Shown: positions 3,860 to 60,846 of the stretch, one piece after another | How positions within the stretch are numbered: the first letter of the stretch is position 1 | How the letters are laid out: each line of letters begins with the position of its first letter | Source of the DNA: Branchiostoma floridae | Lineage: Eukaryota > Chordata > Leptocardii > Amphioxiformes > Branchiostomatidae | NCBI RefSeq assembly: GCF_000003815.2 | Contig: NC_049994.1 | Location: 5,564,903-5,628,902 of the forward strand | DNA: 64,000 bases | Direction: 5' to 3' | Position numbers and translations under genes: made by a program | Notes under the pieces: model-generated | What the model saw: only the letters and a program-made list of their open reading frames with translations | Told to the model about the DNA's origin: nothing | Databases searched by the model: none

Positions 3860-6800
3860 ATGAACTCCCTGGCGAAACTAGATGCAAATGAAAACATCGA
3901 CCCCGTTATGAATGGAACAGTGAATGGAGCTGTCACCATGGAAACGGTGGTGAACGGCGAAGGTGATGACGTCATCAACGGCCACAGCATAGATGACGTC
4001 ATCAGCATGGGTGACGTGGCCGAAGAGTTGTTGCCCGTCGTGGCTGGACTGACGTCACGTCGCAAATACGTGCCCCACTGGTACCTGTACGATACCCGTG
4101 GTTCGGAACTATACGAGGAGTGAGTATGCATAATCACTAATGCATCCATTTTTTGCAGCATTAGGAGGGGAACATTATCATACATAAATCATGCAAATCA
4201 GTGCATCATTTACATAATTTATGTGGAAGTGCTGCCGTAGCCTTTTTTGGTAAGATAAGACTTTGAAATTTGAACAACTTTGTCTATTGTAACTTCAACC
4301 AACCCACAAACTGCATTTAGTACAAGTAACTAGATGGTTAATCAGTTAAGTGGCTATTCGGCTATCATATCTCTTTTTTCTCTCTCTCGGTCCTTCCATT
4401 TTCTGTGACGTTTAACAGCGTTGCAATGTCTTGAGTACGGAGTACTAGTCGCTTAGGCCGTGACTTGATTTCATTACATGAATGACATCAGCGCACGCAT
4501 CAATTTTCATCCGTTCACCCACTCAAAAAATGTACATGTCCGTCAAATATTTGTACTTCTATGTTTTAATTTTGCATTCCCACGTTTTGACAGAGATGGG
4601 CGGGCTTAATCTCCAAGCAGATCCTACGGTAGCATAAGATGCGTGTAGTATCAAAAGCTGGCAAAGGAGTGTGCCCGGCCTAGGAGTGTACATTGGCTAC
4701 CACTAGGAAAGTGCCTTAAAGACGACCCAAAATGTAGCAATGACGAATGTCATAACCTTCCCGAATCTTCAAGCAGACGTATGGTTTCGACTGTCATTGT
4801 GTGGTGTCTCTAGCCTCATTTGCAGGCCTTTTAGGGGTGTAACACATGTTGCAAATCAGCGCGCTCCCCAAAAACAGAAACTTCGATCGGCTCTCGTAGA
4901 GCTACTAGCATCCTCCTGCGCAGGGACATCCAACGACGAAACCACCTGTCTTGATGTACCCTGCTTTCTCAACCGTCACTCTCAGTTCCTGACCGCCATG
5001 CTTATAAATATTAATGAGCTTACCCTTATATATGCGAGACCCCTTTTGAAAACAGAAAGGCCATTCGAATTCTCTGATTGGCTGACAGCTGGTTTGAGGG
5101 GACGCCCACAGGAACTAAAAGTGACGGTTGAGAAAGCAGGGTACATCCAGACAGGCCGTTTTGCCGTTGGATGTCCCTGCGTAGGAAGAAAGGCCTGCAA
5201 GTGATGCCTTTGTTTCTTTATTGAACGCCATACATTTGGAGATTCGTGGCTTTATTTTTTTGTCCGTTTCCACAGACTTGTACACAACTCGTCGACCTAC
5301 AAACTGTGGAAGCACGAATACAGTGTGCTACAAGAACACGGGGACGAGATCTCTAGCAAAATCTCGTCCCCGGCCGTTCTCGTGGAGCTCGGGAGCGGAG
5401 CTTCCTCCAAAACCCGCCTGGTTATCGAGGCTATGTTGAAGCGACACGGAAGCTTCACGTTCATTCCAGTGGACATAGCCAAGGGTAACCGTTAATAGCC
5501 TCTATAGCAGGCTCTCTGGGGCCTTTTTTCTGCTCATAATACAGGAGCAATGGTTAAGCGACCTAGTAGTACAAAAAGAAATTGCCAGCAAAAGACCAAA
5601 ATGACGAGAAAAGGCCTTAGAGAGCCTACTATGGAGGCTAGCTTTTCAAGTTTTCCTTTTTTATACAAATAAATGGGTGGACACATGTGCATGACTTGCT
5701 AATTCTAGAAGGTCATATTTTCATGCCTTTTCGGTCTGTTTGTTTGTTTGTTTCCTGTTTTTGTTACACAGAGTTTATTGAGGACTGTGGGCGGCAGTTG
5801 GAGAGGGACTACCCGGGACTAACTGTGGAGCCGTACGGTGGGTTGTACATGGACGGGGTACGGCACATTGCCGCCCGCCCTGAAGCCAAGATGCTCCTGT
5901 TCCTGGGGAGCAGCTTCAGTAACATCCCGCTGGTGGAACAACTGAAGATGATGGTGGATATAAGGATGCGACTTAGCGGTAAGCACCTGCAGTTTTACTT
6001 CTAAAGAAAACCACCATATTGTAACAACTTTGAGGGGGGTTCACACATGCGCATATATTCAAGTCCGTATGAGGTCCGTATGGCAGTCTTAGCCTCTACC
6101 AGGATTCAAAGGTTGATGGAAAAATAAGAGAAATTGGACACTAATATATATGTATAGACCGATATGTGTCAGACGAGTTAGCTGGGTCGCAAACCATACT
6201 CCAGCTAGCTCCTTTGGCATGTTTAGCATCGACATTTGTCCAATTTCTACTATTTTTATAGTGACCTGTTGGGCCTGGTAGAGACTTAAAGAACTCCATA
6301 CGACCCCTTGCACATATACCCCCCTTAAGAAAGACAGACGCCTCTTTGTACGTAGTACACGGAACGTTGCAGGTTAAATGACAATGTATCGTAGCCTGGG
6401 CGCCAGTCTTTGTAGCTTTTTTGATAGTCCTCTCTCTGAGCCTGAGTATCAGCTTGGTTAGTTTTACTTGGGCTAGACAGAGAAAAAATATGTTTCCCTT
6501 CCGAAAAAAAACATCACTTTAGTGTCATTACGAAAGGCAGTGGATTCTACCTGAAACGTCTGACCGTTTCCAAAATCATATCCAGTTGCTTTAGTTACTT
6601 ATTTTTGGCATATCTTATAAAGAAAACTGTAAGTTAAAGAAAACATCCAGCGGGAGTTTGAAGGCTTTATTCCATCCGTGACCGACTAGATCCCATGGTT
6701 TATTTATTCATCACTACATGTACACTGTCTACACGAACAGTGGGAATTTATTGATGAATGCCACGTACGTCTGGTAAAGGTTGCTTTGTCATTTGTATGC

Positions 6801-15930: not shown

Positions 15931-16521
15931 GGTCTCATAACACAGTAATTATCCGCGACCCCCGTCCCCAAAAGTAGTTCGGGTTAAAATAGTGCATCGC
16001 GGTACTTGCAAAGGCCGTATTCATTCTTCCGTGCACGACAGCGAGGTGGAATCTATGGTGAATAGTAGAGGAATACATCGGTGTTCATACTGTATAAGTT
16101 GGATTACGTCGCTTTTTCGGCCGGCGGGAATTTGCGCCTTGATATGTTACCGGCACTTCCTGTTCGCCGCCTGCAGTTCCATGACCTCCGCTGGGGGTCA
16201 AATCAAAGTGTCTGTTATAGAAAAACGAGCCGGCAAATCTATGCTCATCTTCAGATATTTTGTAGCTTGTACCCTCAACTTCAACATACTAAATTCTTGT
16301 GAATTGTATCTGCACCCTACTATAGGTTTTGAGTCGTCGAACCACCTCACTTTGGGGTCCTTAACCATGTAAATCCCCATACCCGAAAAACTGTGTTCTG
16401 AGACCTTCATCCACAGCGTGAATTCCCCAGGGACGGACAAGCACATTAAATTTGACCGATATATTAGTAATTGACCTCGGCTGACTTGAACTGTAACATT
16501 TTCGTTACCGTCTGACCCGCC

Positions 16522-16535
16522 GTTACCATGACAAC
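16522..16535. promoter_or_regulatory. X-box (RFX-type) motif in the satellite, variant copy
   Basis: This first monomer has GTTACCATGACAAC, one base off the palindromic X-box. The motif is perfect (GTTACCATGGCAAC) at 17506-17519, 18491-18504, 19476-19489, 19982-19995, 20966-20979 and 21950-21963. It matches the RFX consensus GTNRCC-N(0-3)-RGYAAC. Confidence 0.55.
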
Positions 16536-19500
16536 GGCCGCCTAGACCGTTCCCTATGCTTAAGTATAGGACTTAGTGCGGTCTAAAGCCCGCTCGACTC
16601 CCCCCCCCCCCTTTTCCGCCCTAAAAAAGACAAACCCCCAACCCCAACCACTCAGAACGGTAGAATGTGGTCTGGCAAGCTCCTTATAACAGAAAAAGTC
16701 AACCAGAATATTAAATTTGTTGAGATAATGAGACCAATTAGCGGCCCCTCAGATAGTCCTTGTACAGTGCCGACACCTGTGCTAGGCGCCAAAGTGCAAA
16801 GTTGGCCATATCTCAGGAACCATTTGGATTTCTGATCTAAAATTTGGTACGGTTTTGTATCTTGACTAGTTTTATTGTATGAACGTAAAGAAATCCAAGG
16901 TCAAGTTGGCTTAAGGTCTCATAACACAGTAATTATCCGCGACCCCCGTCCCCAAAAGTAGTTCGGGTTAAAATAGTGCATCGCGGTACTTGCAAAGGCC
17001 GTATTCATTCTTCCGTGCACGACAGCGAGGTGGAATCTATGGTGAATAGTAGAGGAATACATCGGTGTTCATACTGTATAAGTTGGATTACGTCGCTTTT
17101 TCGGCCGGCGGGAATTTGCGCCTTGATATGTTACCGGCACTTCCTGTTCGCCGCCTGCAGTTCCATGACCTCCGCTGGGGGTCAAATCAAAGTGTCTGTT
17201 ATAGAAAAACGAGCCGGCAAATCTATGCTCATCTTCAGATATTTTGTAGCTTGTACCCTCAACTTCAACATACTAAATTCTTGTGAATTGTATCTGCACC
17301 CTACTATAGGTTTTGAGTCGTCGAACCACCTCACTTTGGGGTCCTTAACCATGTAAATCCCCATACCCGAAAAACTGTGTTCTGAGACCTTCATCCACAG
17401 CGTGAATTCCCCAGGGACGGACAAGCACATTAAATTTGACCGATATATTAGTAATTGACCTCGGCTGACTTGAACTGTAACATTTTCGTTACCGTCTGAC
17501 CCGCCGTTACCATGGCAACGGCCGCCTAGACCGTTCCCTATGCTTAAGTATAGGACTTAGTGCGGTCTAAAGCCCGCTCGACTCCCCCCCCCCCCTTTTT
17601 CCGCCCTAAAAAGGACAAACCCCCAACCCCAACCACTCAGAACGGTAGAATGTGGTCTGGCAAGCTCCTTATAACAGAAAAAGTCAACCAGAATATTAAA
17701 TTTGTTGAGATAATGAGACCAATTAGCGGCCCCTCAGATAGTCCTTGTACAGTGCCGACACCTGTGCTAGGCGCCAAAGTGCAAAGTTGGCCATATCTCA
17801 GGAACCATTTGGATTTCTGATCTAAAATTTGGTACGGTTTTGTATCTTGACTAGTTTTATTGTATGAACGTAAAGAAATCCAAGGTCAAGTTGGCTTAAG
17901 GTCTCATAACACAGTAATTATCCGCGACCCCCGTCCCCAAAAGTAGTTCGGGTTAAAATAGTGCATCGCGGTACTTGCAAAGGCCGTATTCATTCTTCCG
18001 TGCACGACAGCGAGGTGGAATCTATGGTGAATAGTAGAGGAATACATCGGTGTTCATACTGTATAAGTTGGATTACGTCGCTTCTTCGGCCGGCGGGAAT
18101 TTGCGCCTTGATATGTTACCGGCACTTCCTGTTCGCCGCCTGCAGTTCCATGACCTCCGCTGGGGGTCAAATCAAAGTGTCTGTTATAGAAAAACGAGCC
18201 GGCAAATCTATGCTCATCTTCAGATATTTTGTAGCTTGTACCCTCAACTTCAACATACTAAATTCTTGTGAATTGTATCTGCACCCTACTATAGGTTTTG
18301 AGTCGTCGAACCACCTCACTTTGGGGTCCTTAACCATGTAAATCCCCATACCCGAAAAACTGTGTTCTGAGACCTTCATCCACAGCGTGAATTCCCCAGG
18401 GACGGACAAGCACATTAAATTTGACCGATATATTAGTAATTGACCTCGGCTGACTTGAACTGTAACATTTTCGTTACCGTCTGACCCGCCGTTACCATGG
18501 CAACGGCCGCCTAGACCGTTCCCTATGCTTAAGTATAGGACTTAGTGCGGTCTAAAGCCCGCTCGACTCCCCCCCCCCCCTTTTTCCGCCCTAAAAAGGA
18601 CAAACCCCCAACCCCAACCACTCAGAACGGTAGAATGTGGTCTGGCAAGCTCCTTATAACAGAAAAAGTCAACCAGAATATTAAATTTGTTGAGATAATG
18701 AGACCAATTAGCGGCCCCTCAGATAGTCCTTGTACAGTGCCGACACCTGTGCTAGGCGCCAAAGTGCAAAGTTGGCCATATCTCAGGAACCATTTGGATT
18801 TCTGATCTAAAATTTGGTACGGTTTTGTATCTTGACTAGTTTTATTGTATGAACGTAAAGAAATCCAAGGTCAAGTTGGCTTAAGGTCTCATAACACAGT
18901 AATTATCCGCGACCCCCGTCCCCAAAAGTAGTTCGGGTTAAAATAGTGCATCGCGGTACTTGCAAAGGCCGTATTCATTCTTCCGTGCACGACAGCGAGG
19001 TGGAATCTATGGTGAATAGTAGAGGAATACATCGGTGTTCATACTGTATAAGTTGGATTACGTCGCTTCTTCGGCCGGCGGGAATTTGCGCCTTGATATG
19101 TTACCGGCACTTCCTGTTCGCCGCCTGCAGTTCCATGACCTCCGCTGGGGGTCAAATCAAAGTGTCTGTTATAGAAAAACGAGCCGGCAAATCTATGCTC
19201 ATCTTCAGATATTTTGTAGCTTGTACCCTCAACTTCAACATACTAAATTCTTGTGAATTGTATCTGCACCCTACTATAGGTTTTGAGTCGTCGAACCACC
19301 TCACTTTGGGGTCCTTAACCATGTAAATCCCCATACCCGAAAAACTGTGTTCTGAGACCTTCATCCACAGCGTGAATTCCCCAGGGACGGACAAGCACAT
19401 TAAATTTGACCGACATATTAGTAATTGACCTCGGCTGACTTGAACTGTAACATTTTCGTTACCGTCTGACCCGCCGTTACCATGGCAACGGCCGCCTAGA

Positions 19501-19554
19501 CCGTTCCCTATGCTTAAGTATAGGACTTAGTGCGGTCTAAGCCCGCTCGACTCC

Positions 19555-19881
19555 CCCCCCCCCCTTATTCCCCCCCTAAAAGGAAAAACCCCCAATCCCA
19601 ACAAATAAAAAAGGGAAAAATTGGGCCGGGAAAGCCTCTTTAAAAAAAAAAATTCACCCCAAAAATAAAATTGTTTGGGAATAAGAAGACCAATTACGGC
19701 CCCCCCAAAAGCCCTTGTACAGGGCCGACCCCTGTGCTAGGCCCCAAAGTGAAAAGTTGGCCATATCTCAGGAACCATTTGGATTTCTGCTCTAAAATTT
19801 GGAACGGTTTTGTATCTGGACTAGTTTTATTGTATGAACGAAAAAAAATCCAAGGCCAAGTTGGGTTAAGGTCTCAAAACA
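19555..19881. repeat. Degenerate satellite segment, probable low-quality sequence
   Basis: The second half of the 18885 monomer departs abruptly from its siblings: bases drop out, homopolymers lengthen (for example an eleven-A run), and substitutions favour A, C and G runs. It then jumps at about 19881 into the middle of the unit at 'attccccaggg', losing about 480 bases. This looks like a poor read or a collapsed join in the assembly rather than biological divergence. Confidence 0.6.
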
Positions 19882-22800
19882 ATTCCCCAGGGACGGACAA
19901 GCACATTAAATTTGACCGATATATTAGTAATTGACCTCGGCTGACTTGAACTGTAACATTTTCGTTACCGTCTGACCCGCCGTTACCATGGCAACGGCCG
20001 CCTAGACCGTTCCCTATGCTTAAGTATAGGACTTAGTGCGGTCTAAAGCCCGCTCGACTCCCCCCCCCCCTTTTTCCGCCCTAAAAAGGACAAACCCCCA
20101 ACCCCAACCACTCAGAACGGTAGAATGTGGTCTGGCAAGCTCCTTATAACAGAAAAAGTCAACCAGAATATCAAGTTTGTTGAGATAATGAGACCAATAA
20201 GCGGCCCCTCAGATAGTCCTTGTACAGTGCCGACACCTGTGCTAGGCGCCAAAGTGCAAAGTTGGCCATATCTCAGGAACCATTTGGATTTCTGCTCTAA
20301 AATTTGGTACGGTTTTGTATCTTGACTAGTTTTATTGTATGAACGTAAAGAAATCCAAGGTCAAGTTGGCTTAAGGTCTCATAACACAGTAATTATCCGC
20401 GACCCCCGTCCCCAAAAGTAGTTCGGGTTAAAATAGTGCATCGCGGTACTTGCAAAGGCCGTATTCATTCTTCCGTGCACGACAGCGAGGTGGAATCTAT
20501 GGTGAATAGTAGAGGAATACATCGGTGTTCATACTGTATAAGTTGGATTACGTCGCTTCTTCGGCCGGCGGGAATTTGCGCCTTGATATGTTACCGGCAC
20601 TTCCTGTTCGCCGCCTGCAGTTCCATGACCTCCGCTGGGGGTCAAATCAAAGTGTCTGTTATAGAAAAACGAGCCGGCAAATCTATGCTCATCTTCAGAT
20701 ATTTTGTAGCTTGTACCCTCAACTTCAACATACTAAATTCTTGTGAATTGTATCTGCACCCTACTATAGGTTTTGAGTCGTCGAACCACCTCACTTTGGG
20801 GTCCTTAACCATGTAAATCCCCATACCCGAAAAACTGTGTTCTGAGACCTTCATCCACAGCGTGAATTCCCCAGGGACGGACAAGCACATTAAATTTGAC
20901 CGACATATTAGTAATTGACCTCGGCTGACTTGAACTGTAACATTTTCGTTACCGTCTGACCCGCCGTTACCATGGCAACGGCCGCCTAGACCGTTCCCTA
21001 TGCTTAAGTATAGGACTTAGTGCGGTCTAAAGCCCGCTCGACTCCCCCCCCCCCCTTTTCCGCCCTAAAAAAGACAAACCCCCAACCCCAATCACTCAGA
21101 ACGGTAGAATGTGGTCTGGCAAGCTCCTTATAACAGAAAAAGTCAACCAGAATATCAAGTTTGTTGAGATAATGAGACCAATAAGCGGCCCCTCAGATAG
21201 TCCTTGTACAGTGCCGACACCTGTGCTAGGCGCCAAAGTGCAAAGTTGGCCATATCTCAGGAACCATTTGGATTTCTGCTCTAAAATTTGGTACGGTTTT
21301 GTATCTTGACTAGTTTTATTGTATGAACGTAAAGAAATCCAAGGTCAAGTTGGCTTAAGGTCTCATAACACAGTAATTATCCGCGACCCCCGTCCCCAAA
21401 AGTAGTTCGGGTTAAAATAGTGCATCGCGGTACTTGCAAAGGCCGTATTCATTCTTCCGTGCACGACAGCGAGGTGGAATCTATGGTGAATAGTAGAGGA
21501 ATACATCGGTGTTCATACTGTATAAGTTGGATTACGTCGCTTTTTCGGCCGGCGGGAATTTGCGCCTTGATATGTTACCGGCACTTCCTGTTCGCCGCCT
21601 GCAGTTCCATGACCTCCGCTGGGGGTCAAATCAAAGTGTCTGTTATAGAAAAACGAGCCGGCAAATCTATGCTCATCTTCAGATATTTTGTAGCTTGTAC
21701 CCTCAACTTCAACATACTAAATTCTTGTGAATTGTATCTGCACCCTACTATAGGTTTTGAGTCGTCGAACCACCTCACTTTGGGGTCCTTAACCATGTAA
21801 ATCCCCATACCCGAAAAACTGTGTTCTGAGACCTTCATCCACAGCGTGAATTCCCCAGGGACGGACAAGCACATTAAATTTGACCGATATATTAGTAATT
21901 GACCTCGGCTGACTTGAACTGTAACATTTTCGTTACCGTCTGACCCGCCGTTACCATGGCAACGGCCGCCTAGACCGTTCCCTATGCTTAAGTATAGGAT
22001 TTAGTGCGGTCTAAAGCCCGCTCGACTCCCCCCCCCCCTTTTCCGCCCTAAAAAAGACAAACCCCCAACCCCAATCACTCAGAACGGTAGAATGTGGTCT
22101 GGCAAGCTCCTTATAACAGAAAAAGTCAACCAGAATATCAAGTTTGTTGAGATAATGAGACCAATAAGCGGCCCCTCAGATAGTCCTTGTACAGTGCCGA
22201 CACCTGTGCTAGGCGCCAAAGTGCAAAGTTGGCCATATCTCAGGAACCATTTGGATTTCTGATCTAAAATTTGGTACGGTTTTGTATCTTGACTAGTTTT
22301 ATTGTATGAACGTAAAGAAATCCAAGGTCAAGTTGGCTTAAGGTCTCATAACACAGTAATTATCCGCGACCCCCGTCCCCAAAAGTAGTTCGGGTTAAAA
22401 TAGTGCATCGCGGTACTTGCAAAGGCCGTATTCATTCTTCCGTGCACGACAGCGAGGTGGAATCTATGGTGAATAGTAGAGGAATACATCGGTGTTCATA
22501 CTGTATAAGTTGGATTACGTCGCTTCTTCGGCCGGCGGGAATTTGCGCCTTGATATGTTACCGGCACTTCCTGTTCGCCGCCTGCAGTTCCATGACCTCC
22601 GCTGGGGGTCAAATCAAAGTGTCTGTTATAGAAAAACGAGCCGGCAAATCTATGCTCATCTTCAGATATTTTGTAGCTTGTACCCTCAACTTCAACATAC
22701 TAAATTCTTGTGAATTGTATCTGCACCCTACTATAGGTTTTGAGTCGTCGAACCACCTCACTTTGGGGTCCTTAACCATGTAAATCCCCATACCCGAAAA

Positions 22801-36836: not shown

Positions 36837-38469
36837 AACATTATATCACAAAATTGTTCTGATCAACACTGCTAGAATTCTAAGGAAGCTAAGATGGTCA
36901 CGATATATTTGTCTCCTTTACCTCTTTTGTTCTTCATTTTGTCTATGAGAATACCGAATTACCATTAAATTTTTTTTGACTCACTCTAATGGCCGCTAAA
37001 AGGGAAAATCACCCAAAAGATTCCATGCCTTCAAGACCGAGTACTATAGAGCTAGCAACCGGCGATGTGTTCAAAAACTCGTATTTTTCCAGAACTACCG
37101 TAGATTGTCATTGTTACATATAAGTAAGTCAATAGAATGATAATTGTTACTTTTCAATAAAGCTTTAAAAATAGGCCTCGGAACCAGCGGTAAAAAAAAC
37201 AAACTTCATGACAGGAACTTTCAGTCACTTCCCAGTTGGCATTTTGTTATGTTCACCACTATTGAGAGACTATCGATATCGTCGCCATTTTTATTGCCAG
37301 GCTTGTTCTATTCTTAGCAATAATTCCACACTATTAATTGTAGGAAAATGTTCATCCCGTGAACAATCCAAGATGTATATGTCATGAGTGATGATAAAGA
37401 ATGGATTCTTATCTCACTATAGAAGAAAACACACACTTCATTTTCTAAACTTCTAAAATCATATCGCAGACACCGACGAGTAATCATTTGCGACATTGAA
37501 GTAAGGTAGCATACACAATATAAAGTAAAGATTTGTACTACAAGACGTTACCCACATCAATCCTTTGCTATTAGTTGCCACAACTCATAGTACATGATTG
37601 AACAAACATCCAGTAACTAAACTTTGGAAGGTTTGCAAAGGGAGCAATATATGAGTACATGTATATAACACCATGGTCACTGTGTCAACTAATACGTGCT
37701 GCGTTCGAACATTCGTGTTATTTGCTGTTTTACCTGCCCGAAAGTCTGTTGTGGTTTAAAGTCTTTCCGACAACTATTTGTACAGTACACACGCTTGCGC
37801 TTACGTAATAGTACTTGGTGTTAGCTACATGGTTAAACTATGACCTCGAGCATACCAGTCTATTAGGTCGTTGGACACTCGGAAAGCTGATATATTGTGA
37901 TTTTAGATGTATGTTTAGTTCTTGCTTGATGAATCGTAACAAACTGGCCGCACACTGGATTTTTGAAGAGGTTCATACTTTATCGTCTTCCCCCCATGAC
38001 ACTTTGCACCAGAGTCAGGTAACAGGACTTGTCTACTTAAATAGGTGGTTTTGAGTGGTATTGATCTCATGGTTCACAGTGGGGTTAATTTTTTTCATAA
38101 CATTAACAGGTCGGACAACAGTGACGGCCGGGGTGTCGTTACCACCAAGTGTTCTGTTTGTTTCAGTGGGTCATGCGTGTGCAAAACAAAATGCTTCCGC
38201 TATCAGTATGACCTTCTTGCGCAGCCGCATTACGTGATCGGCGTACGAAACCTTAACGTCACGTTTGCAAACACGCAAATTTCAGGTACCATTACGTTTA
38301 TAGGTAGACAACGCGGTCCCTCCGATGTCACACGTGCACCGTTGTCCTCCATGTTTGGTAACGTTTTTAAATAACAACCTTTCTGTTCATCGAGTGGGTC
38401 TTCGACATACATTTCTCAATCTCAGCCTTGGTTCAGACGTTCTGAACTGTGTCGAACGCTTTACACTAT
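36837..38469. other. Intergenic region before the TRIM gene
   Basis: The polyadenylation signal of the sulfotransferase gene is at 37156-37161. Otherwise AT-rich sequence with no recognisable gene, repeat family or clear core promoter. Confidence 0.5.
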
Positions 38470-41400
38470 ATGGCGGAATCGAAACTTCTGAATCGCCTCT
38501 TAGAAGACTTCCTTGAGTGTCAGATCTGCCTGCAGCCCTACTGCCGGCCTAAGGTACTGTCTTGTCTTCATTCCTTCTGCCAGCAGTGTCTTGAAGAGGT
38601 TTTGAAGAAGCAAAAGGTCAAAACCGAGCTAGACTGCCCCACCTGTCGCACCAAGTCTTTACTTCCGGGTGGCGGGGTCGCGGAACTGAAAGATAATTTC
38701 TTCGTGGAGAGCCTGAAGGATACGATTGACGTCCACAAGAAGCTGACTAATGAAGGAGAGAGTCTGGTCTGTGGGAGCTGTGAGACCAAGTCAGGAGCGG
38801 AGTCTTTTTGTACGGAATGTGGCTTCTTTTTATGTGACGAATGTGTAGCAATCCACCGTCGTATAGCGGTGACCAGAGGTCACCAGGTGATCGGTGTAGA
38901 GCAGCTCAAGGCCGAATCCGACACCGTTAAGATCAAGCCTCGTCCCCTGCCACCGTGTAGGGTCCACTCACAGGAGGCTCTCAAGTTCTTCTGCACCAAC
39001 TGTAGCGAGGCTATTTGTCAGGTATGCACCGCTCTGTCCCACAAGGACCACAATTACGAGTATTTCACTGACACAGCTGTGAAAGCTAAAGAAGACATAA
39101 GCGCTCTTCTTGCGAAAACAGAAAAGAACGGATGGGAGACCTTAAGAACGCTGACCAATAGGCGAACGCACAGAAGACCGAGCTCGAGAAAAATGTCACC
39201 GAAACTATCGAAAAGATCAAGAGGAAAGCAGAAAAAACTAGAAAGGATTTAGTTGCGCTTGTCAATCAGCAAGAGGCAGAGTTACTGGATTGTGTTAACA
39301 CGGTGAGCCAGACCCGGAGAAAGGAGATCTCCATCGCTATAGAAGAGATAGAAACGGCGACTGTGGCGTTAGAGAGCGCGGCAGAGTTCGGACGGAACAT
39401 CGTGGAACACGGATCGGAGTTTGACATCATGGCGGTCAGTGGGGAAGTGAATATTAGATTGAAGAAACTGTTACAGGTAGAGCTTGCCGATATTACAGAG
39501 GAATTACCTACGAAGGCCTACATCGATTTTGAAGAGGACGAGATGTCAGACATGGCCAGGTATCGCCTGGGAGAAGTGAAAACAACGCAGGCCGGTAATT
39601 ATATTTAGACTTACAAGTCACACAAAAGTATACATATTTGCTATAGTGATTGCTAAAAATGAAGTGTTGACTTGTAAACACAGACTATATACAAGTGTAC
39701 ATCCTCCAGAATGCTATATCATGGACTGATTTTGATCACTCGAAATGGCTATCTTTATCATATCTTCCACATTTTTTGTACCTATAAGATTCAGGTTTCC
39801 GTACTGCCCGTTTCACGACCCTCGGTACCACCGGCCGTCTGGGCCCGAAGGCCTACATCGATTTTGAGGATGACGACACGTCAGACATGGTCAGGTATCG
39901 CCTGGGAGAAGTGAAAACAACTCAGGGTAAGATTTACAAGTCTCACAAAAGTATACATATTTGCTATGGTGATTGCTAAAATCACAAACCCTACTCACAA
40001 TGTAGAGCTTGTGATAGTCTACTAACCACTGCTTTAAAAGAACAAGACAAACACCGCAAAAGTAAACGCAGTACCTTATAGTTGATCAGGCATTATAGTG
40101 CTATGTACTTATAAATACAATATTTACGCAATAAGTATTTCTGGCATGATCTTGCAAATAAAACAATATACATATCCCCAATTCATAGCTCGACAAACTT
40201 TTGTATCAATTTGTTCATATTTGTCATAAACGAAGAAAAACAATCTTACAGAATTACCAGTGACTACTTTTTAAAGGTAAACACACGCACCTCCAAATTT
40301 ACGATGGCTATTAGTCCATCTTGTTCACGGAGTCACCTAGTTCTCGCGAGAGTTGCGTGGACCTTCTGCCCTTCACCCCGCCTCCTTGCGGAGTAGGGTT
40401 AAGTAGGACTTGGGTAGCTCCCAGCCATCATTGCGGTTCAGCTTTGCACCTTCCAACTCGATGTGGACTGCTTCTTTGACCTTTCTGTGGGCTTTACGTG
40501 GTTCTTGGTCAATAATCTCGACAGTGTCTGAGATAGGTTTGGTCTATCCTTCGAAAATTTGGAGGTACGCGTATATATACGTGTGTTTACCTCACTGTTA
40601 GATGGAAATTCTATTAAATGTGACTAATGAATCTCTTCAATGAAATCTTACAGAAAAATCTAAAAGTCCAATTTTCTTATCATTGTATTGATAAGTACTG
40701 ACAAGTAAGTATTGACTCTTTAAAACAGACTACATACAAATTTACATCCACCAGAATGCTATATCGATCATGGACTGATTTTGATCACTCGAAATGACTA
40801 TCTTTATCATATCTTCCACATTTTTTGTACCTATAAGATTCAGGTTTCCGTACTGCACGTTTCACGACTCTTGGTACCATCGGCCGTCTGGGTCCGACCA
40901 GCCTGGGGACCCACTACCGCGGACAGGACCACGAGGGGCTGGTGCAGCTGAAGGACGGGATTCAGTACTTCACTGTACCAAATACTGGGCAGTACAGGGT
41001 AGAGGCGGCAGGTGTGTTAATAGGTGCAAATCCATTCTTTAGTTATTTTACTTTGGAATGATTACATTTAATTGAAATGCCATATTTGGCATTGTATAGC
41101 ATTTAGAATCTTAACAGGCTGTGTTGTATTTGTACTTTCTAGGTTCTGCCGCAGGTTGGGGTGGGGTAGACCCCAAGTCCGCCAGAGGGCGCGGTGCGGT
41201 GGTCAGAGGAACCTTTCAACTGCAGAAAGGTAGGGGTCCTGATGATCACTATTCTCTAACCCCTGCTTGGAGAGTAACATCGACTACCATAATTCCACCA
41301 GGTGTCATAATACCGCCACCTAAAAAAAAACGTTTAGTACAGAGGTCTCCCCAAGATTGTCTTGAACACCGAATGTTAGATATCCTAAATGTAATACAAT

Positions 41401-42473
41401 TCAGATATTTAGGTTAGATTGATCAGAGGAAGCGGAGACAACCATGGTCTTGTAAAAGACGTGTTATAGTAGGAGATAAAAACAAGTAAAGCATTCCCTT
41501 GTTGTTGTTTTTGTTGTTGTTTATTTCGATCTCCAATTAGATTTTTTGCAATGTCACTATATAAGCTACGCAAAACATTTATCTAGATGATACATTAATT
41601 CCTTTCGGCCTGACATTCAAGAGGTCTATGAAAAATGGCCTTTTATTAATGTACATTTTCTACTTCGGTGATATTACAGCGATTACTTCATAATTTCATG
41701 GTGACAGGACTAGACATGCATACAGAAAAGCTATTTCTCTTCCTTTGAAAGTGACCGCTATCAACCAGCTGATAATTCTGTCCCTTGTAAATGAAAAGAG
41801 CGAAAACCTCTAGGCTCAACCGTTTTGACTTTTGTGGCCAATTATCATTTTAGGTGAGGTGTTGAAGATACTTGCTGGCCAAGAGGGAGGGGAGAACAAG
41901 TTTGGCTTTTCTGTTGGCGGTGGAGGCGGAACCTTCGTCACCAAGACGGACAACACGCCGCTGATCGTGGCGGGGGGTGCGGGAGGAGGTTTTATGATGC
42001 TTGGTAGGAGCCCCAACAGTGACGGTACAACCGCGACAACGGGACAGACAAGCGGGGGTGGTCAGTCACATTTTGCAGGAGGTACTGACGGAAAAGGCGC
42101 CACACAAGGAAGCGATGGCCCTGTCGGTGGGGGAGGCGGGGGGCTCCTAACGGACGGCGCGAGTGGACAAGTCAACTTTGGTGGCACTGATGGGGGTCAA
42201 GGGGGTGAGGGTGGGAAAGCCTTCGTGAACGGTGGAGTCGGTGGGAGGGGGGTGAACTACAATGCAGAGGGCGGGTTTGGAGGAGGGGGAGGGAGTAATG
42301 GCTATGGAGGTGGGGGAGGAGGAGGGGGTGGGTACTCAGGAGGAGGGAGGGGGGGTAACTATAGTGGCACATGTGGGGGTGGAGGTGGTTCCTATAACTC
42401 CGGATCAGACACTAGCGGTGAAGGCGGGGCCAATGACGGGCCGGGATATGTTATAATTACTAAGGACATATAG
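38470..42473 (+). CDS. TRIM (RING/B-box/coiled coil) fused to an ALK/LTK-type glycine-rich domain; disrupted
   Basis: Exons: 38470-39594, 39795-39926, 40844-41011, 41143-41229 and 41854-42473, all phase 1 introns. The first exon encodes a RING (C17, C20, C32, H34, C37, C40, C56, C59), two B-boxes (CGSCETKSG.., CRVHSQEALKFFC..) and a coiled coil. The last three exons encode FTTLGTIGRLGPTSLGTHY, IQYFTVPNTGQYRVEAAG, GEVLKILAGQEGG and a long Gly-rich stretch with PLIVAGGAGGG, ending GPGYVIITK. That is the pattern of the glycine-rich domain of ALK/LTK receptors. A likely ubiquitin ligase with an unusual C-terminal module. The frame breaks near 39121-39131 and an in-frame TAG sits at 39159-39161, so as assembled the product stops in the coiled coil. 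Pseudogene, allele or sequencing error are all possible. Confidence 0.8.
39795..39926 (+). repeat. Chimeric duplicated exon inside the TRIM gene
   Basis: This 132-base exon begins like exon 3 (FRTARFTTLGTTGRLGP matches 40844 onward) and switches abruptly to the end of exon 1 (KAYIDFEDDDTSDMVRYRLG matches about 39510-39590). The flanking introns are also duplicated: 39601-39794 resembles both 39927-39985 and 40741-40843. It is phase 1 on both sides, so splicing keeps the frame. It records an unequal tandem duplication. Confidence 0.8.
40250..40610. repeat. Dispersed inverted element in a TRIM intron
   Basis: The left part (tttaaaggtaaacacacgca) and right part (cgtgtgtttacctcactg) are inverted relatives around 'atttggaggt'-type sequence. 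A third copy of this end is at 57370-57410 in the lectin gene. Non-coding. Confidence 0.55.
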
Positions 42474-53985: not shown

Positions 53986-56900
53986 TTAAATTGGTTTCTC
54001 GCAAATGTAGGCATAGGCAGTGCCGCATTGGAAGTCGTTCCACTGCCCATGGTGCATCTTCTTTCCCAAAAACCAAATTTTGTAGTTCTGTCAAAAAGAG
54101 AACAACGCAAATATGTTACATTAAGAGGACTGCATTCGCCAAGGCACTCGTTTACACCATCAAGGCAAAAACACATTTCCGTTTTCATGCAGATTATGCA
54201 TCATAGGAATCATACTTACTCTATAGTATGATTTAGTACTCTATTCTGTACTGTATGTTCATCCACTTAATATTTGTATGTTAGAATTTAGATTATCTAC
54301 ATGTATTTGGACCACAGTCTTTCATTTCATGTATCTAGCCTTTTTTTCACTTGAAATTAGCCCCATGGGCATAAATTTGCAATAAAACATTTCATTATGT
54401 CAGTATCTCAATTTATTTGATGCTAATTTGAAATGCTATCAAATGTGTATCCTTGCACGAAATAAGATTTAGAAATCTTACACGATTCAGACTTATTTAT
54501 TTCAAGAGTCTAGAACCCAAATTTAAAGGTAATTCTATCACTATAGCTACAACTGGATGAAAATCGTGACTTTACTCACTTGTGAATTAGTGACTTTGAC
54601 ATGTTTAACCGGGTTTAGTAACTGATATTGATAAAGAATAATGCAAACACTATAAATAAACTCGGTTATCGTACTCGAAAAATGTAAGAGGCACACACCT
54701 TGGAATACACGACGGCGCAGTTCTCTCCCTTATATCCCGAGAACCATTTATTGTTATTCGGCTCCCCCGGAACCCAGTTTTTGTAGTGAAAACGTGACCC
54801 GTCTGTCCACTTCCATTGTCCAGATTTCTTATGTAGACCCATCCAGATGGCCGGTACCGTCGTCTTATCTGGAACGAAAAGCCAAGTACCATAGTCTTAA
54901 TAAGTTATTTGTAATCTCAGCCGACTCTTGAGTTATGGGGAGGGGCGCTTTTGTCTTTGGTTCATTTGCACATGAATTCAAGCCATACTGAATGTAGGAA
55001 ATTAAATGATAATATAAGGTTACATGGAAAGACTACACTGGATAACACATGGACTAACCATTTTTCAATACAGAGTAATCGTCAATGATTCTTTGATATG
55101 ATGAACATATCTCCTTGATATATGTCGATGTTTCACATTTCTACAATAAAGTGATATGGCAATTCTTTAAACAGGAGAAAAGAACAAATATGTTAGATCA
55201 TTTTCTACTTGACCCAACTATTAAGAATCTTGTCCCTAGCATTCTTCTACGCAGAGACATCCAACGGTGCCACCAAACCGCCTCTTGTTTGTACTCTGCT
55301 ATCTCAAGCGTCATCATCAGTTCCTGTAGGCGTCGCCACAAACCAGCTATCAGCCAATCAGAGAATAGGCCTTTCAGTTTCCAAAAGGGATCTTGCATAT
55401 ATAAAGGTAAGCTCATTAATATCTATAAACAGGGCGGTCAGGAACTGATGGTGACGGTTGAGATAGCAGAGTACTGACAAGAGGCGGTTTGCTGGCGCCG
55501 TTGGATATCTCTGCGTAGGAGAATGGTCCCTAGTTGCCATTTGTTCACTATGACCATTTTCGAAGAGTACATGTTACCCACAGTTTGAGATGAGATCTTT
55601 CACAAAGTTGTTCTCGGCCTGGTCGTTGATAGAGATAAGCATAGCGCCGTGTTGTCTGCATCGTGAGCTCGCTGCAGACCAACTGAGTTTGTCAGTCATC
55701 AGTTTGTAGCAGTGGTTGTTGTATTTCCTCCACTCACTCGGACACTGCAGAGCTGGGATCAAATTTGGAATTTTACAGAAGGCTGAACACATTTCTTGGT
55801 TTTACTGCCTGGCTCTATATGTTGGATAACCACAATATTCAGCCGTGATTTTTCTTACTAAGAGTCTTAGGAATGAGATTTCTTTATTAAATTGACATCT
55901 TTACCAAGTATCCGTGCTGTCTAGTACTGCTATAGTACAGAGCTAAGCCTCTGCAGCTGTCCAAAATTTAGAACGTTTTAAGTTCAGCGTTGTAGTATGT
56001 GATATGATTACTGGTGAAGGTAGAGTTTACAAAATTTAGGATTATTCACCCAGGAGATAACAGGTAAGTGCTTTGGGCAAAAAAAGAACTAATAGATTAT
56101 CTGTTACGTACAATTTTGCATAGAAAAGGCCAAATTTCTAACCGAATAGCTACATATACATGAGAGCGAACTTACAATTCTGACAGTTCTGTCCAGTCCA
56201 TCCAGGTGAGCAGGTACATTTGTAGCCGTCATCTTGGTTCACGCATCGTCCATGTTGGCATGGGTTCTCTGTGCACTCGTCAATGTCTGTGTAATAGATG
56301 AAATATTGTCTGATTGCTGGACCAGAAAGATTAGGTCAATTTTAGATTGTAGATGTTGAATATGTCAAGATAAAATAGTCGAGAAAAATATCTTACCTTG
56401 CTGACAGTTCTGTCCAGTCCATCCAGGTGAGCAGGTACATTTGTAGCCGCCATCTTGATTCACGCAGCGTCCATGTTGGCATGGGTTCTTGGTGCACTCG
56501 TCAATGTCTGTGTAATAAATTAAACATTGTGTCATTGGTAACTCTGAGAGAGTAGGTCAATGCTAAAATGTAGATGCTGAATGTGAAAGGATAAAACAGC
56601 AAAAAAAATTGTCACCTTGCTGACAGTTGTGTCCAGTCCATCCAGGTGAGCAGGTACATTTGTAGCCGCCATCTTTGTCCTGGCAGGTCCCATGTTTGCA
56701 TGGTTTCTTAGCACACTCATTTAGGTCTGTATATGAAGATTAAAAACGAAAAACTGTTATTGTCAGAAAATAAGTCAGAAAAAGAGCACCACAAACAATG
56801 GCTAGCTATGGACAGTCATAATGTTAAAATAAATGGTATCTGAATTTTCTCAAACTAGCATTCTAAGTACTTACCAGTGGTTAACAGAAATGAGGTAGTT

Positions 56901-59900
56901 CCTGGTAATGCATCGGCGGACACACTGCTGTTCTTAAATGACAAATACGTTGGAGCTCGAGTCGAGTCAACGACTATGAACTCGTCAAAAGCCGAGTTAT
57001 TTTCTTCATAGAATGCCGTCTTCCATGGGGTACTGGATTCCAGGATCATCGTGCCATTTTGTTGCAGTTTTGAACCAAAAGCCACCTAGATACAAGAGCA
57101 CAACGTTGAAATATCTGACATTCCATTCCACTTCCATTCCACTTCCATTCCACTTCCATTCCACTTCCATTCCACTTCCATTCCACTTCCATTCCACTTC
57201 CATTCCACTTCCATTCCACTTCCATTCCACTTCCATTCCACTTGTAACGCGACCTCGCTGCGGCCACATTGCAACCATAATACGTTTTGTGTGTTTAGCT
57301 GTCTTTCGTTGTTTTGTGTGTTTTTTGTTAACTCTCTAGGTCACTCCGTGAGCAAGATGGTCTTATAGCCATCGAAAATTTGGAGGTACGTGTGTTTACC
57401 TTTAAAAAGTAGTCACTGCTTAATGAAAATTCTATTGCCTGTTGTCATTTTAGTCATATACTTCAATATTTTCATGATATTCCTGTAATGAAGTCAAGCC
57501 TAGGGTTGCAGAAATCGAGGTCGCAGCGAAATCGCCGACTAGTGGAATGGGGGCTGAGGCTATACAGCCCAACTATGAAATATATCAACTGCTACTAATG
57601 ATATAGCCTCGTTGTAAACTTTACAGCAATTCTTTCACGCGCAATTTTCCGATTGCTTGATGGTTTATGGTTATTTTGCTTTGACCTTGGTTAAAAAAAT
57701 ATTAACGTGTGCCTACCAAAGTCTAGCCTAGGTACCTACGTGCCACCTGCTAAAGCTAAGGGCACAATCCGACGTCTACGTGCCAAAACGTGGGCAATCT
57801 TTTGGGATCCGTAAGTGGTAGGTACCGCCTCCGTACGAACTCGTAGGAAATCCGACGGATTTTGGAGCACGTAGACACGCCGTAGAACTTTACATGCAGG
57901 CAGAATTTTGTGTGCCATCGGGCTGCAGGTTCGCCAGCACGGGCGACGCGCCTGCCTTGAACGTTTTGAGAAATACGTGGCGGACGTGGCTTCCCAAATA
58001 ACGTACGGACAAATTGCACGTACGGCGGGTTAAGCAAGTGAAACGATTGAGCCAGCCGCCCTGCGAAGGATGGTACCCAGGCTAGCCGAAAAAAAATGGT
58101 TAAGTATGTATTGCCACTCGGTCCCTGTCTAAAACAAGACTTTCTAGCTTACCCTCCCATCGGAAGTGATCAGTAAGTGAGTTGCCATGATGCCAGCGAT
58201 GACAACTGATGCTACGGCCAGAAGTCCACATCCCATTGCAAGCCAGCAAACTTTGTTAGATTTCCACTCACTCCACATTTGCACGACACGTTCTGAGATG
58301 AAACAGGAGTAGAAAAATGCATTCTGAGCAAACGTCTGTAATAACCAGCCTCCGTTGAAGTCTTGGTACGGGACTGGGTTTTTTGGGGGGGTACGTGGGG
58401 AGGGGCGTTGGTTCGCGATTTTCAACGTTGGCTTGGTTCTCTTGTGNNNNNNNNNNNNNNNNNNNNNNNNNNNNNNNNNNNNNNNNNNNNNNNNNNNNNN
58501 NNNNNNNNNNNNNNNNNNNNNNNNNNNNNNNNNNNNNNNNNNNNNNTGCTAGTTACTAATGATAATATTATGATGATATTACTATTGTATAGTCCATGGT
58601 GCGCCATGTATGTGTTTTTATGTACAGGAGGACAGCTTTGAAAGGTGCATTTTACATGCACCTGTTTTGCCCTCCCATTCACTCCGTATGATAGATCAAA
58701 ATAAACAAATAAAGAAATGTATTCTTGTTTTCACCTATGCACTATAAGTGAAATGCACGCTTGAAAAAGTTGAATTATTGTTTTTCTTACTGCGTAGCTT
58801 TTCGTTAATTATGGATACTCTGTATGTCAATTCAATTTTATGAATTCATTTACTGTGCTTTTCCATCACAGCTGTCGGTACGTTCTCTTCAAGGCCATCA
58901 TTTGAAGGCCACAATACCGAAAAAAAAATCATATCAGACTGATGCAACAAATATTTGTGTAAAAGATTAAATGAGTAGGTTTTTTTTCGTTGAGGTGATA
59001 AAAAGACGCAAATGAAATGTTTTTTTCTCACACAACTTTTTATCAGATGTAGACCTTTGTTGTCGTGTGATGGTTGATTAATTGTCTATGCAGTTTCCAC
59101 AAGGTCTTCTTCGTTACACAATCTTTTTTTGATTCTTCCCTTTGATTCTTTCGACGACCATCTGTCGCCTTCATCAGTACAAAATGAAACAAATACTTTC
59201 GAATGAAACAAATACTTTCGGTGCTATGTAAACTAGAGAGAGTCAGTGCAATCTGAACTTCCAACCGTCATAATACAATCGTTTAAGTCCATTTAGTTCA
59301 TATCGTACCGATAGTATTTGTTTCATTTTGAACTGATGAAGCCGACATATGGTCGTCGAAACGTTTACGGAAGAAGGTTGTGTAATACCCATGTCACATC
59401 CACGCTCTTCGGGCGTATCGATGGAAGATCGGCCGTATCTAAGATGGAAGATCGGCCGTATCTAAGATGGAAGATCGGCCGTATCTAAGATCGACAGAGG
59501 GATGCGCGTATTTTTCACCTGAAAACCGTCCCTGTTACATATAAGCCATACTTTGTACCTTGTACAATTGCTGTGCAATAAAGATATTATTATAAGAGAG
59601 GCTCGGGCGATTTTCGCCAAATGTGACAGAGGAATAACGAAGAAGACTTTGTGGGATTGATCTACCAACCTGATGAAATTATTTACGGATGTCTATGCAT
59701 GTATTTACTAGCAGTCTTTGGCGAGGAAGGTTAATGAAGAATCAAATCCTTTCAATCAATTCTCAAACTAGAAACATACAATGTAGTTACAGTGGCTCTG
59801 TCTACAATGTGCTATGGAAATTATAAATACTGTAATAGTAAATTGCATCAAAAGAGTTGTAAATGTTGTATTCAATGCTGTAACGTACCTTTAGCCCTGT

Positions 59901-60846
59901 GTGCGAAGCTGACTTCCTGAGGATCTTTGTAGCCGTAAACATCCTCTGGTTTGGCGTAGTCGTGTGAAGAAGACTTTTCCTCAAACGTCTTGGTTACTTC
60001 TTCAGGCATTTTGTACCGGTAAGCATCCTCTGGTTTGTCGTAGTCGTGGGAAGAAGACTTTTCCTCAAACGTCTTGGTTACTTCTTCAGGCACTTTGTAC
60101 CGGTAAGCATCCTCTGGTTTGTCGTAGGCGTGGGAAGAAGACTTTTCCTCAAACGTCTTGTTTACTTCTTCAGGCACTTTGTACTGGTAAGCATCCTCTG
60201 GTTTGTCGTAGTCGTGTGAAGAAGATTTTTCCTCAAACGTCTTGTTAACTTCTTCAGGCACTTTGTACTGGTAAGCATCCCCTGGTTTGTCGTAGTTGTG
60301 TGAAGAAGACTGCTCCTCAAACTCGTTGTTTACTTCCTCAGGTACTTTGTAGCCGTAACAATCCTCTGGGTTGGTGTAGTAGTGGGAGCAATCATCTTCC
60401 TCATATCCCTTGCTGACTTCTTCAGCCTGTCGGTACGCGTAGGTGTGTTCTGATTCATGCCCCGAACACACCACTACGTGATCTCCGACGTGAAGGTATC
60501 GTGGCCCGGCCGCGGCAGGTTGCTTGTCGGTGGCGGAACCGAAGGGGCCTACTTCAGTCTGTTCTCCGACGATGGTGTGTTCATAGGCATGTTTACCACG
60601 ATCGGCATCCTTGCTTCGGATTTTGAGATCTTTGCCTGCGCTAGAGTAGGACATGTCTTCTTTTACTTTATTGCTATGTTTCCCAAGTGTTGGAGCGGGT
60701 GTGTATATGTAAGGCACTGAGGGTTGATGTGCTGAGCTGATCTTTGGGAGGTCCACATCTTCCTCTTTGGCATCTTCCTCACGTAGTGCCTGCTGAAGTT
60801 TTGAGCTCGGTTTTGTGACACCCACATCTTTCTCTGTTGTCGCCAT
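53986..60846 (-). CDS. Type II transmembrane C-type lectin with three EGF modules and a cytoplasmic YxxP repeat array
   Basis: Nine exons on the minus strand: 60846-59889, 58292-58153, 57085-56875, 56726-56616, 56507-56397, 56286-56176, 55752-55582, 54868-54699 and 54087-53986. The product is 694 residues. Residues 1-333 are cytoplasmic; 142-309 are six 28-residue repeats, each with two YxxP motifs (typically YDKP and YKVP). A membrane segment spans about 334-356 (CWLAMGCGLLAVASVVIAGI). A ~75-residue stem precedes three 37-residue EGF modules (437-547; two open DIDEC, one DLNEC, the calcium-binding type). The C-type lectin domain (548-694) has the EPN mannose-type Ca2+ motif and WND in the last exon. 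The 55582 donor (GTGGGT) is non-optimal but is the only one that keeps phase. A likely carbohydrate-recognition and signalling receptor; I know of no described protein with this layout. Confidence 0.85.
55241..55525. mobile_element. Foldback MITE, second copy
   Basis: Arms 'acgcagagacatccaacg' and complement. The internal 'tcagccaatcagagaat' and 'gcatatataaaggtaagctc' segments match 4911-5191 in inverse order. Lies in the intron between the first and second lectin-domain exons. Confidence 0.75.
57121..57242. repeat. 11-bp minisatellite (ttccattccac) in lectin intron
   Basis: About eleven nearly perfect copies of ttccattccac. All three minus frames remain open across it, producing spurious Trp/Asn/Gly-rich open frames. 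Confidence 0.95.
58447..58546. other. Assembly gap (100 N)
   Basis: Run of undetermined bases in the intron upstream of the transmembrane exon of the lectin gene. The exact 100 bases suggests a placeholder of unknown true size. Confidence 1.
59400..59640. repeat. Dispersed repeat with internal triplication
   Basis: Inverted relative of 2480-2620 and 3104-3200. It shares 'gggcgtatcgat', 'ttgtacaattg..tgcaataaag' and 'gctcgggcgat' blocks. The 'gatcggccgtatctaagatg' unit is present three times in tandem (59430-59495). Non-coding, in the first coding intron of the lectin gene. Confidence 0.6.

Follow-up and report, generated by a model that had tools for sequence, protein, structure and literature searches.

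The window, by which we mean the whole 64,000-nucleotide stretch of Branchiostoma floridae DNA that was analyzed, contains a gene predicted to encode a transmembrane C-type lectin receptor with 12 YxxP motifs in its N-terminal cytoplasmic tail. Judged by its sequence, the gene is a member of a multigene lectin receptor family in this genome, and the YxxP-tailed lectin family is probably specific to lancelets, the search having covered the B. floridae assembly. With modest confidence, we favor the reading that these genes form a lineage-specific family of type II lectin receptors whose phosphorylated tails would dock Crk-like SH2 domains.

Vertebrate lectin receptors signal mainly via ITAM-type motifs. 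If the reading proposed here is true, Cas-like YxxP arrays in chordate lectins would be another route from sugar recognition to cytoskeletal signaling and would help explain lancelet lectin function. The family would also constitute a natural receptor series for multivalent SH2 recruitment, with 1 to 19 candidate docking sites. In two lancelet species, the set of dispensable genes is described as enriched in lectin C-type domains (PMC12373286).

Gene structure and membrane topology

The predicted gene model is made up of nine exons on the minus strand, encoding 694 residues plus a stop codon with every phase matching, and reads in order as a YxxP tail, a transmembrane segment, a stalk, three EGF domains, and one C-type lectin domain. 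Coding exon 1 (59889..60846) is predicted to supply the tail. It holds 319 open codons running from an ATG to the donor AAAG/GTACGT, and an acceptor-like tttaacacag lies 2 nt ahead of the ATG. Exon 2 (58153..58292) encodes the transmembrane segment (KVCWLAMGCGLLAVASVVIAGIMATHLLIT), with a best 19-residue mean hydropathy of 2.38. The stalk exon (exon 3, 56875..57085) has no Pfam match, and a similar exon is found in some paralogues. Exons 4 to 6 (56616..56726, 56397..56507, and 56176..56286) each encode an EGF domain according to both the gene model and Pfam, which reports three EGF stretches above its cut-off (E 1.4e-19).

The lectin domain is divided over the last three exons. Its first part lies in exon 7 (55582..55752; gene model and Pfam), its middle part with the EPN motif in exon 8 (54699..54868), and its end with the WND motif and stop codon in exon 9 (53986..54087), the latter two being supported by the gene model, Pfam, and a PDB search. 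The domain matches Lectin_C (PF00059) at 62.8 bits against a cut-off of 22.6 (E 5.7e-17), and 241 distinct PDB sequences match it at E 0.001 or better, led by LY75, PLA2R, and mannose receptors. We take EPN and WND to be Ca2+-site motifs, and sugar binding is predicted. The exon 7 donor was placed at T/GTGGGT because this keeps the frame and because GTGGGTAAC recurs at this exon in the window and in the paralogues L044 and L035. An alternative donor, GTAACA, was rejected as the frame breaks immediately.

The protein is most likely a type II receptor, with its tail inside the cell, a single membrane pass, and its lectin domain outside. The orientation is argued mainly from the EGF and lectin domains, which are extracellular; the two sides of the membrane segment differ little in charge (+2 versus +1).

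The sequence-only reading had assigned the lectin domain and the transmembrane exon to the same receptor as the tail, and the in-phase exons, the continuous frame, and the PF00059 match sustain that assignment. It could be objected that the repeat exon is a separate gene unjoined to the lectin, as a 100-N run marking an assembly gap (58447..58546) sits inside intron 1. Against this, the 59889-to-58292 join is in phase, a phase 1 donor meeting a phase 1 acceptor, and the junction recurs elsewhere in the genome. Counting the window, 25 distinct loci were found to have the transmembrane exon, and in 24 of them it lies directly behind a phase-matched AG; L034 is the exception, and L044 is a further matching case outside the 25. 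This recurring tail-to-membrane junction is the best available support that tail and receptor are one protein, and we regard the separate-gene explanation as very improbable. In L032, on the minus strand, the beginning of the transmembrane exon is matched three times, near 4223, 4451, and 4679 of the reverse complement, and two of these matches span the first 19 residues only.

Several other features of the window were observed in passing. The intron between exons 2 and 3 contains a perfect 11-bp repeat (TTCCATTCCAC; 57121-57243, 11.2 copies), which, read on the minus strand, shortly precedes exon 3. On the plus strand, seven near-identical 143-residue open frames occupy 15941-22780. Their spacing is 983-985 bp in most steps and 1490 in one, a period that exceeds the 500-bp limit of Tandem Repeats Finder. 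Open frames at 38446-39605 (plus strand) resemble, by eye, a RING/B-box TRIM-type protein. A very glycine-rich open frame at 41829-42470 (plus strand) resembles, again by eye, the glycine-rich region of ALK/LTK-type receptors.

The YxxP tail

All 12 YxxP motifs of the window tail fall between residues 157 and 309 (59920..60378, minus strand), where sequence reading and a tandem repeat search define six 28-residue (84-bp) units of two motifs each. The units read YTNP..YKVP, then YDKP..YKVP three times, YDKP..YKMP, and finally YAKP..YKDP. Our re-reading as 319 codons, six units, and 12 motifs matches the coordinates, strand, and motif list of the sequence-only reading, and the number of motifs also agrees with its remark that YxxP is repeated here as in the p130Cas substrate region. 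Tandem Repeats Finder reports a period of 84 bp at 59925-60387, with 5.5 copies and a 90% match, and a degenerate seventh unit, GHESEHTYAYRQAEEVSKGYEEDDCSHY, lies just upstream of the six repeats and is without YxxP. Composition alone would give 1.78 YxxP where 12 are present, and 12 were reached in 0 of 2000 shuffles. As the copies arise by duplication, the 12 motifs must not be counted as twelve independent events, and their recurrence across the family is stronger evidence than the shuffle test.

The window tail contains no YxxL/I, ITIM, or NPxY motifs. Readings of it as an ITAM, ITIM, or NPxY tail were rejected on these counts, and 1 to 2 YxxL/I are present in some paralogue tails. No credible domain was found in the window tail by Pfam and PDB searches. 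A Pfam match to p55_CTD (29.4 bits, cut-off 27) was rejected because no stretch passes alone and about 18 residues align, and it is probably an effect of the repeats or of composition. The PDB search of the tail returned just two alginate lyase chains at E 0.3, which were likewise rejected. A single-sequence fold of the tail, made with no alignment, gave a mean pLDDT of 44, which weakly suggests disorder.

A paralogous family in the genome

When the tail was searched against the window's own assembly (513,431,437 bases, 431 contigs), at least 64 matches at E 10 or better were obtained; leaving the window itself aside, the strongest has an E value of 3.6e-96. From the fetched DNA we collected 31 distinct tail exons, window included, without a YxxP filter. 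Membership required the end motif and a phase-1 GT behind it, plus either a GDH core or a P-x-[DE]-[VD] string; the uniform donors of the set are therefore a product of its construction, and the P-x-[DE]-[VD] option may tilt it slightly towards YxxP. The set omits L009, L015, L019, and one short L033 frame, each of which has at least one YxxP. YxxP is present in 31 of 31 tails, although all the tail DNA had been selected for its resemblance to the YxxP-rich window exon, which may favor YxxP-bearing tails. There are 1 to 19 motifs per tail, with a median of 4 and a total of 167, and these fall into the overlapping classes YKxP (77), Y[DE]xP (71), and YxxPxD (73).

A 52-residue tail query free of YxxP recovered 30 open frames from the fetched DNA, of which 29 have YxxP. 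The single frame lacking it is a piece of L012, a gene with a broken frame, and the other piece of that gene carries 5. The statement that all tails have the motif does not draw on an earlier collection of 35 tails, for which one YxxP or more was a condition of entry. Within this earlier collection, 21 of 35 tails exceed shuffles at p<0.05 and 14 do not, while the spacing from Y to P peaks at +3 (181 cases), with 12 at +2, 43 at +4, and 121 at +5. In L004 (C16 near 6.045 Mb) and L012 (C14 near 4.976 Mb), a frame break splits the tail, leaving 2 YxxP before the break and 14 after it in L004; these two loci may be pseudogenes or assembly errors.

Lectin exons were found in 11 of 17 fetched neighborhoods (7-10 kb, window included). 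The number of EGF exons between tail and lectin varies, from 0 in L044 and 3 in the window to 11 in L045, with other values elsewhere. Six neighborhoods have no lectin exon (L031, L033, L036, L037, L041, and L042), and in L033, L036, and L041 the EGF exons reach near the edge of the fetched stretch.

Repeat amplification and motif conservation

The length of the repeat period differs by gene. It is 84 bp in many, 174 in L005, 48 in L024, 27 in L033, and in multiples of 27 in L032. For 45.2 of 103 repeat units, where 7.2 would be expected, the nearest relative lies within the same tail. Copies thus arise by local duplication, and motif number overstates selection. A tree of the tails, covering 25 of the 31 since six open frames did not match the core pattern, places the long arrays in separate clades (L001 with L005 in one, and L017, L024, L028, and L030 in another), and other clades have 1 to 3 motifs. 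On our reading, the ancestral tail was short and its repeats were amplified more than once. It is tempting to go further and propose a lineage-specific lancelet family of dozens of lectin receptors in which arrays of a pYxxP docking unit lengthened on several independent occasions. The outcome would be a graded series of pattern receptors that signal through Crk/RasGAP SH2 domains, and we would give this proposal slightly less than even weight.

These same features could be explained if the repeats were a neutrally or structurally amplified disordered spacer, in which YxxP is a by-product with no SH2 role. The wide variation in unit number and length (27, 48, 84, and 174 bp), the clustering of copies by gene, and, weakly, the low pLDDT of the single-sequence fold made without an alignment are all in keeping with such a spacer, as is the array of L033, from which Tyr has mostly been lost. 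Of 34 xx[K/R]P sites in L033, the first residue is His in 26 and Tyr in 7, and at about 834-1397 the array consists of 9-residue units, GHSKPEDVY, in which His mostly stands for the YxxP Tyr and KPEDVY is kept. In L032, Tyr begins 12 of 31 such sites. The spacer explanation does not, however, account well for YxxP being kept in every tail of the 31-tail set and in nearly all frames found with the YxxP-free query. Nor does it fit L017, L019, and L024, in which one of the two motifs is gone in many units yet the other is retained. In L017, for example, the first motif has become YETA 9 times and YETV 5 times, with YETP left twice, and YKxP is retained 15 times. Finally, dN/dS is below 1 in the repeats of the window-like group, with medians of 0.50 for the N-terminal part of the tail and 0.41 for the repeats (66 pairs from 12 window-like tails). 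The comparison was set up with 14 tails, of which 2 were passed over; in L012 the N-terminal part, with a dN of 0.50 to the window, appears to have been misread. We judge the spacer explanation to be distinctly unlikely.

Residue conservation was followed in two ways. With weighting by tail, the 173 repeat units of the 31-tail set keep the first P in 66%, the second Y in 84%, and the second P in 80%; the first Y reaches 98%, in a column covered by roughly half the total weight (15.9 of 31) and with a local alignment that favors matches beginning there. In the ungapped membrane-proximal (terminal) element of the 31 tails, Y is present in 25 and P in 23, and both are less well kept than V (29/31), S (31/31), and F (29/31). 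Of the 25 motif Tyr codons of this element, 24 are TAC, which leaves a synonymous test with little power.

Candidate SH2 partners and proposed signaling

YxxP is the consensus of Crk and CrkL SH2 domains and is already recognized by choanoflagellate Crk, which dates the preference to before the metazoans, and two Crk genes, crka1 and crka2, are transcribed in B. floridae (PMC5043372). The receptors DCBLD1 (8 YxxP) and DCBLD2 (7 YxxP) bind the CRKL SH2 domain, driven by Fyn and Abl (PMC6029619). By likeness to these two proteins, we infer that the window tail may recruit Crk. In the proposed mechanism, a ligand would cluster the lectin domains outside the cell, allowing phosphorylation of the tail by a Src- or Abl-type kinase. 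Several pYxxP sites could then dock Crk-like SH2 domains simultaneously, a multivalent recruitment that would feed C3G/Rap1 or DOCK/Rac, the pathways in which Crk acts, and that might drive adhesion or bring the bound particle into the cell. Signal strength would be set by how many motifs a gene has (1 to 19). The Crk SH2 optimum at +1 is Asp. The presence of Lys at +1 in 77 of the 167 family motifs differs from this optimum and counts against the Crk reading. The His-for-Tyr array of L033, the mostly Pro-less first motif of L017, the 14 tails that do not exceed shuffles, and the weaker retention of Y and P than of V, S, and F in the terminal element also weigh against it.

Crk is not the sole candidate partner, as the first motif in the window's repeat units also fits the ligand of the p120RasGAP N-SH2 domain. 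Docking of phosphotyrosine would then be correct, with the main partner being p120RasGAP (pYxxPxD) above all, or Abl or Nck, and the receptor would damp Ras or act on Rho rather than drive Crk/Rac. YxxPxD is the name given to the p120RasGAP consensus. Every window repeat has YxxP[EG]D as its first motif, so that six of the 12 YxxP and all six first motifs fit YxxPxD, as do 73 of 167 family-wide. The structure of the p120RasGAP N-SH2 domain with p190RhoGAP shows contacts to pTyr-1105, Pro-1108, and Asp-1110 with a Kd of 0.3 μM (PMC6938330), and binding of the Abl SH2 domain to DCBLD2 appears to depend on YxxP sites (PMC6029619). The second window motif, YK[VMD]P[EQ]E, argues the other way since it lacks the Asp at +5, and YxxPxD as a written consensus together with RasGAP and SH2 was not found in the open literature. 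Y[DE]xP, present in 71 of 167 motifs, also speaks against a RasGAP preference, as it fits the SH2 domains of Crk and Nck. On motif content p120RasGAP is a serious rival partner for the window tail, although we consider it unlikely that this partner, Abl, or Nck is the main one in place of Crk.

Comparison with known systems

The sequence-only reading knew of no described lectin receptor with this kind of tail. Across 5.39 million open papers, none combined YxxP with a C-type lectin. Among the matches listed for amphioxus, C-type lectin, and YxxP, no paper had all three, and the titles and abstract starts listed by further searches had nothing on such tails. Transmembrane receptors with YxxP arrays are known from DCBLD1/2 and from choanoflagellates, so only the pairing of a lectin ectodomain with a YxxP array appears to be new.

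Dectin-1, CLEC2, and DC-SIGN are type II proteins with a lectin outside and tyrosine motifs inside, coupled through hemITAM, ITIM, or ITAM adaptors. The window receptor shares the extracellular lectin, the intracellular tyrosine motifs, and the predicted topology of these vertebrate signaling lectins, and differs from the hemITAM and ITIM lectins in that its tail is without YxxL/I or ITIM. Among choanoflagellate proteins, PTSG_05573 and others are similarly membrane proteins with several cytosolic YxxP, and phosphopeptides from one such protein bind a Crk SH2 domain (PMC5043372). Their ectodomains are different, consisting of thrombospondin repeats, DUF5011, and growth-factor-receptor-like regions, with no lectin or EGF domain named in the passages of that paper describing them (PMC5043372).

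p130Cas/BCAR1 resembles the window tail in having many YxxP, its substrate domain containing 15 (PMC5043372). It is nevertheless a cytosolic scaffold with an N-terminal SH3 and a C-terminal FAT-like domain, neither of which is among the 15 Pfam families that match the window protein at E 1 or better. DCBLD1 and DCBLD2 have a CUB/LCCL/discoidin ectodomain without a lectin domain, and their motifs are not known to form tandem repeats of one unit. CUB, LCCL, and discoidin are absent from the Pfam list of the window ectodomain (E 1 or better), on which EGF and C-type lectin types are found. The likeness lies in their being transmembrane receptors whose tails of 8 or 7 YxxP bind the CRKL SH2 domain if phosphorylated (PMC6029619). 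By analogy, the receptor encoded in the window would most likely operate in the manner of DCBLD1/2 and of the Cas substrate domain while belonging to neither.
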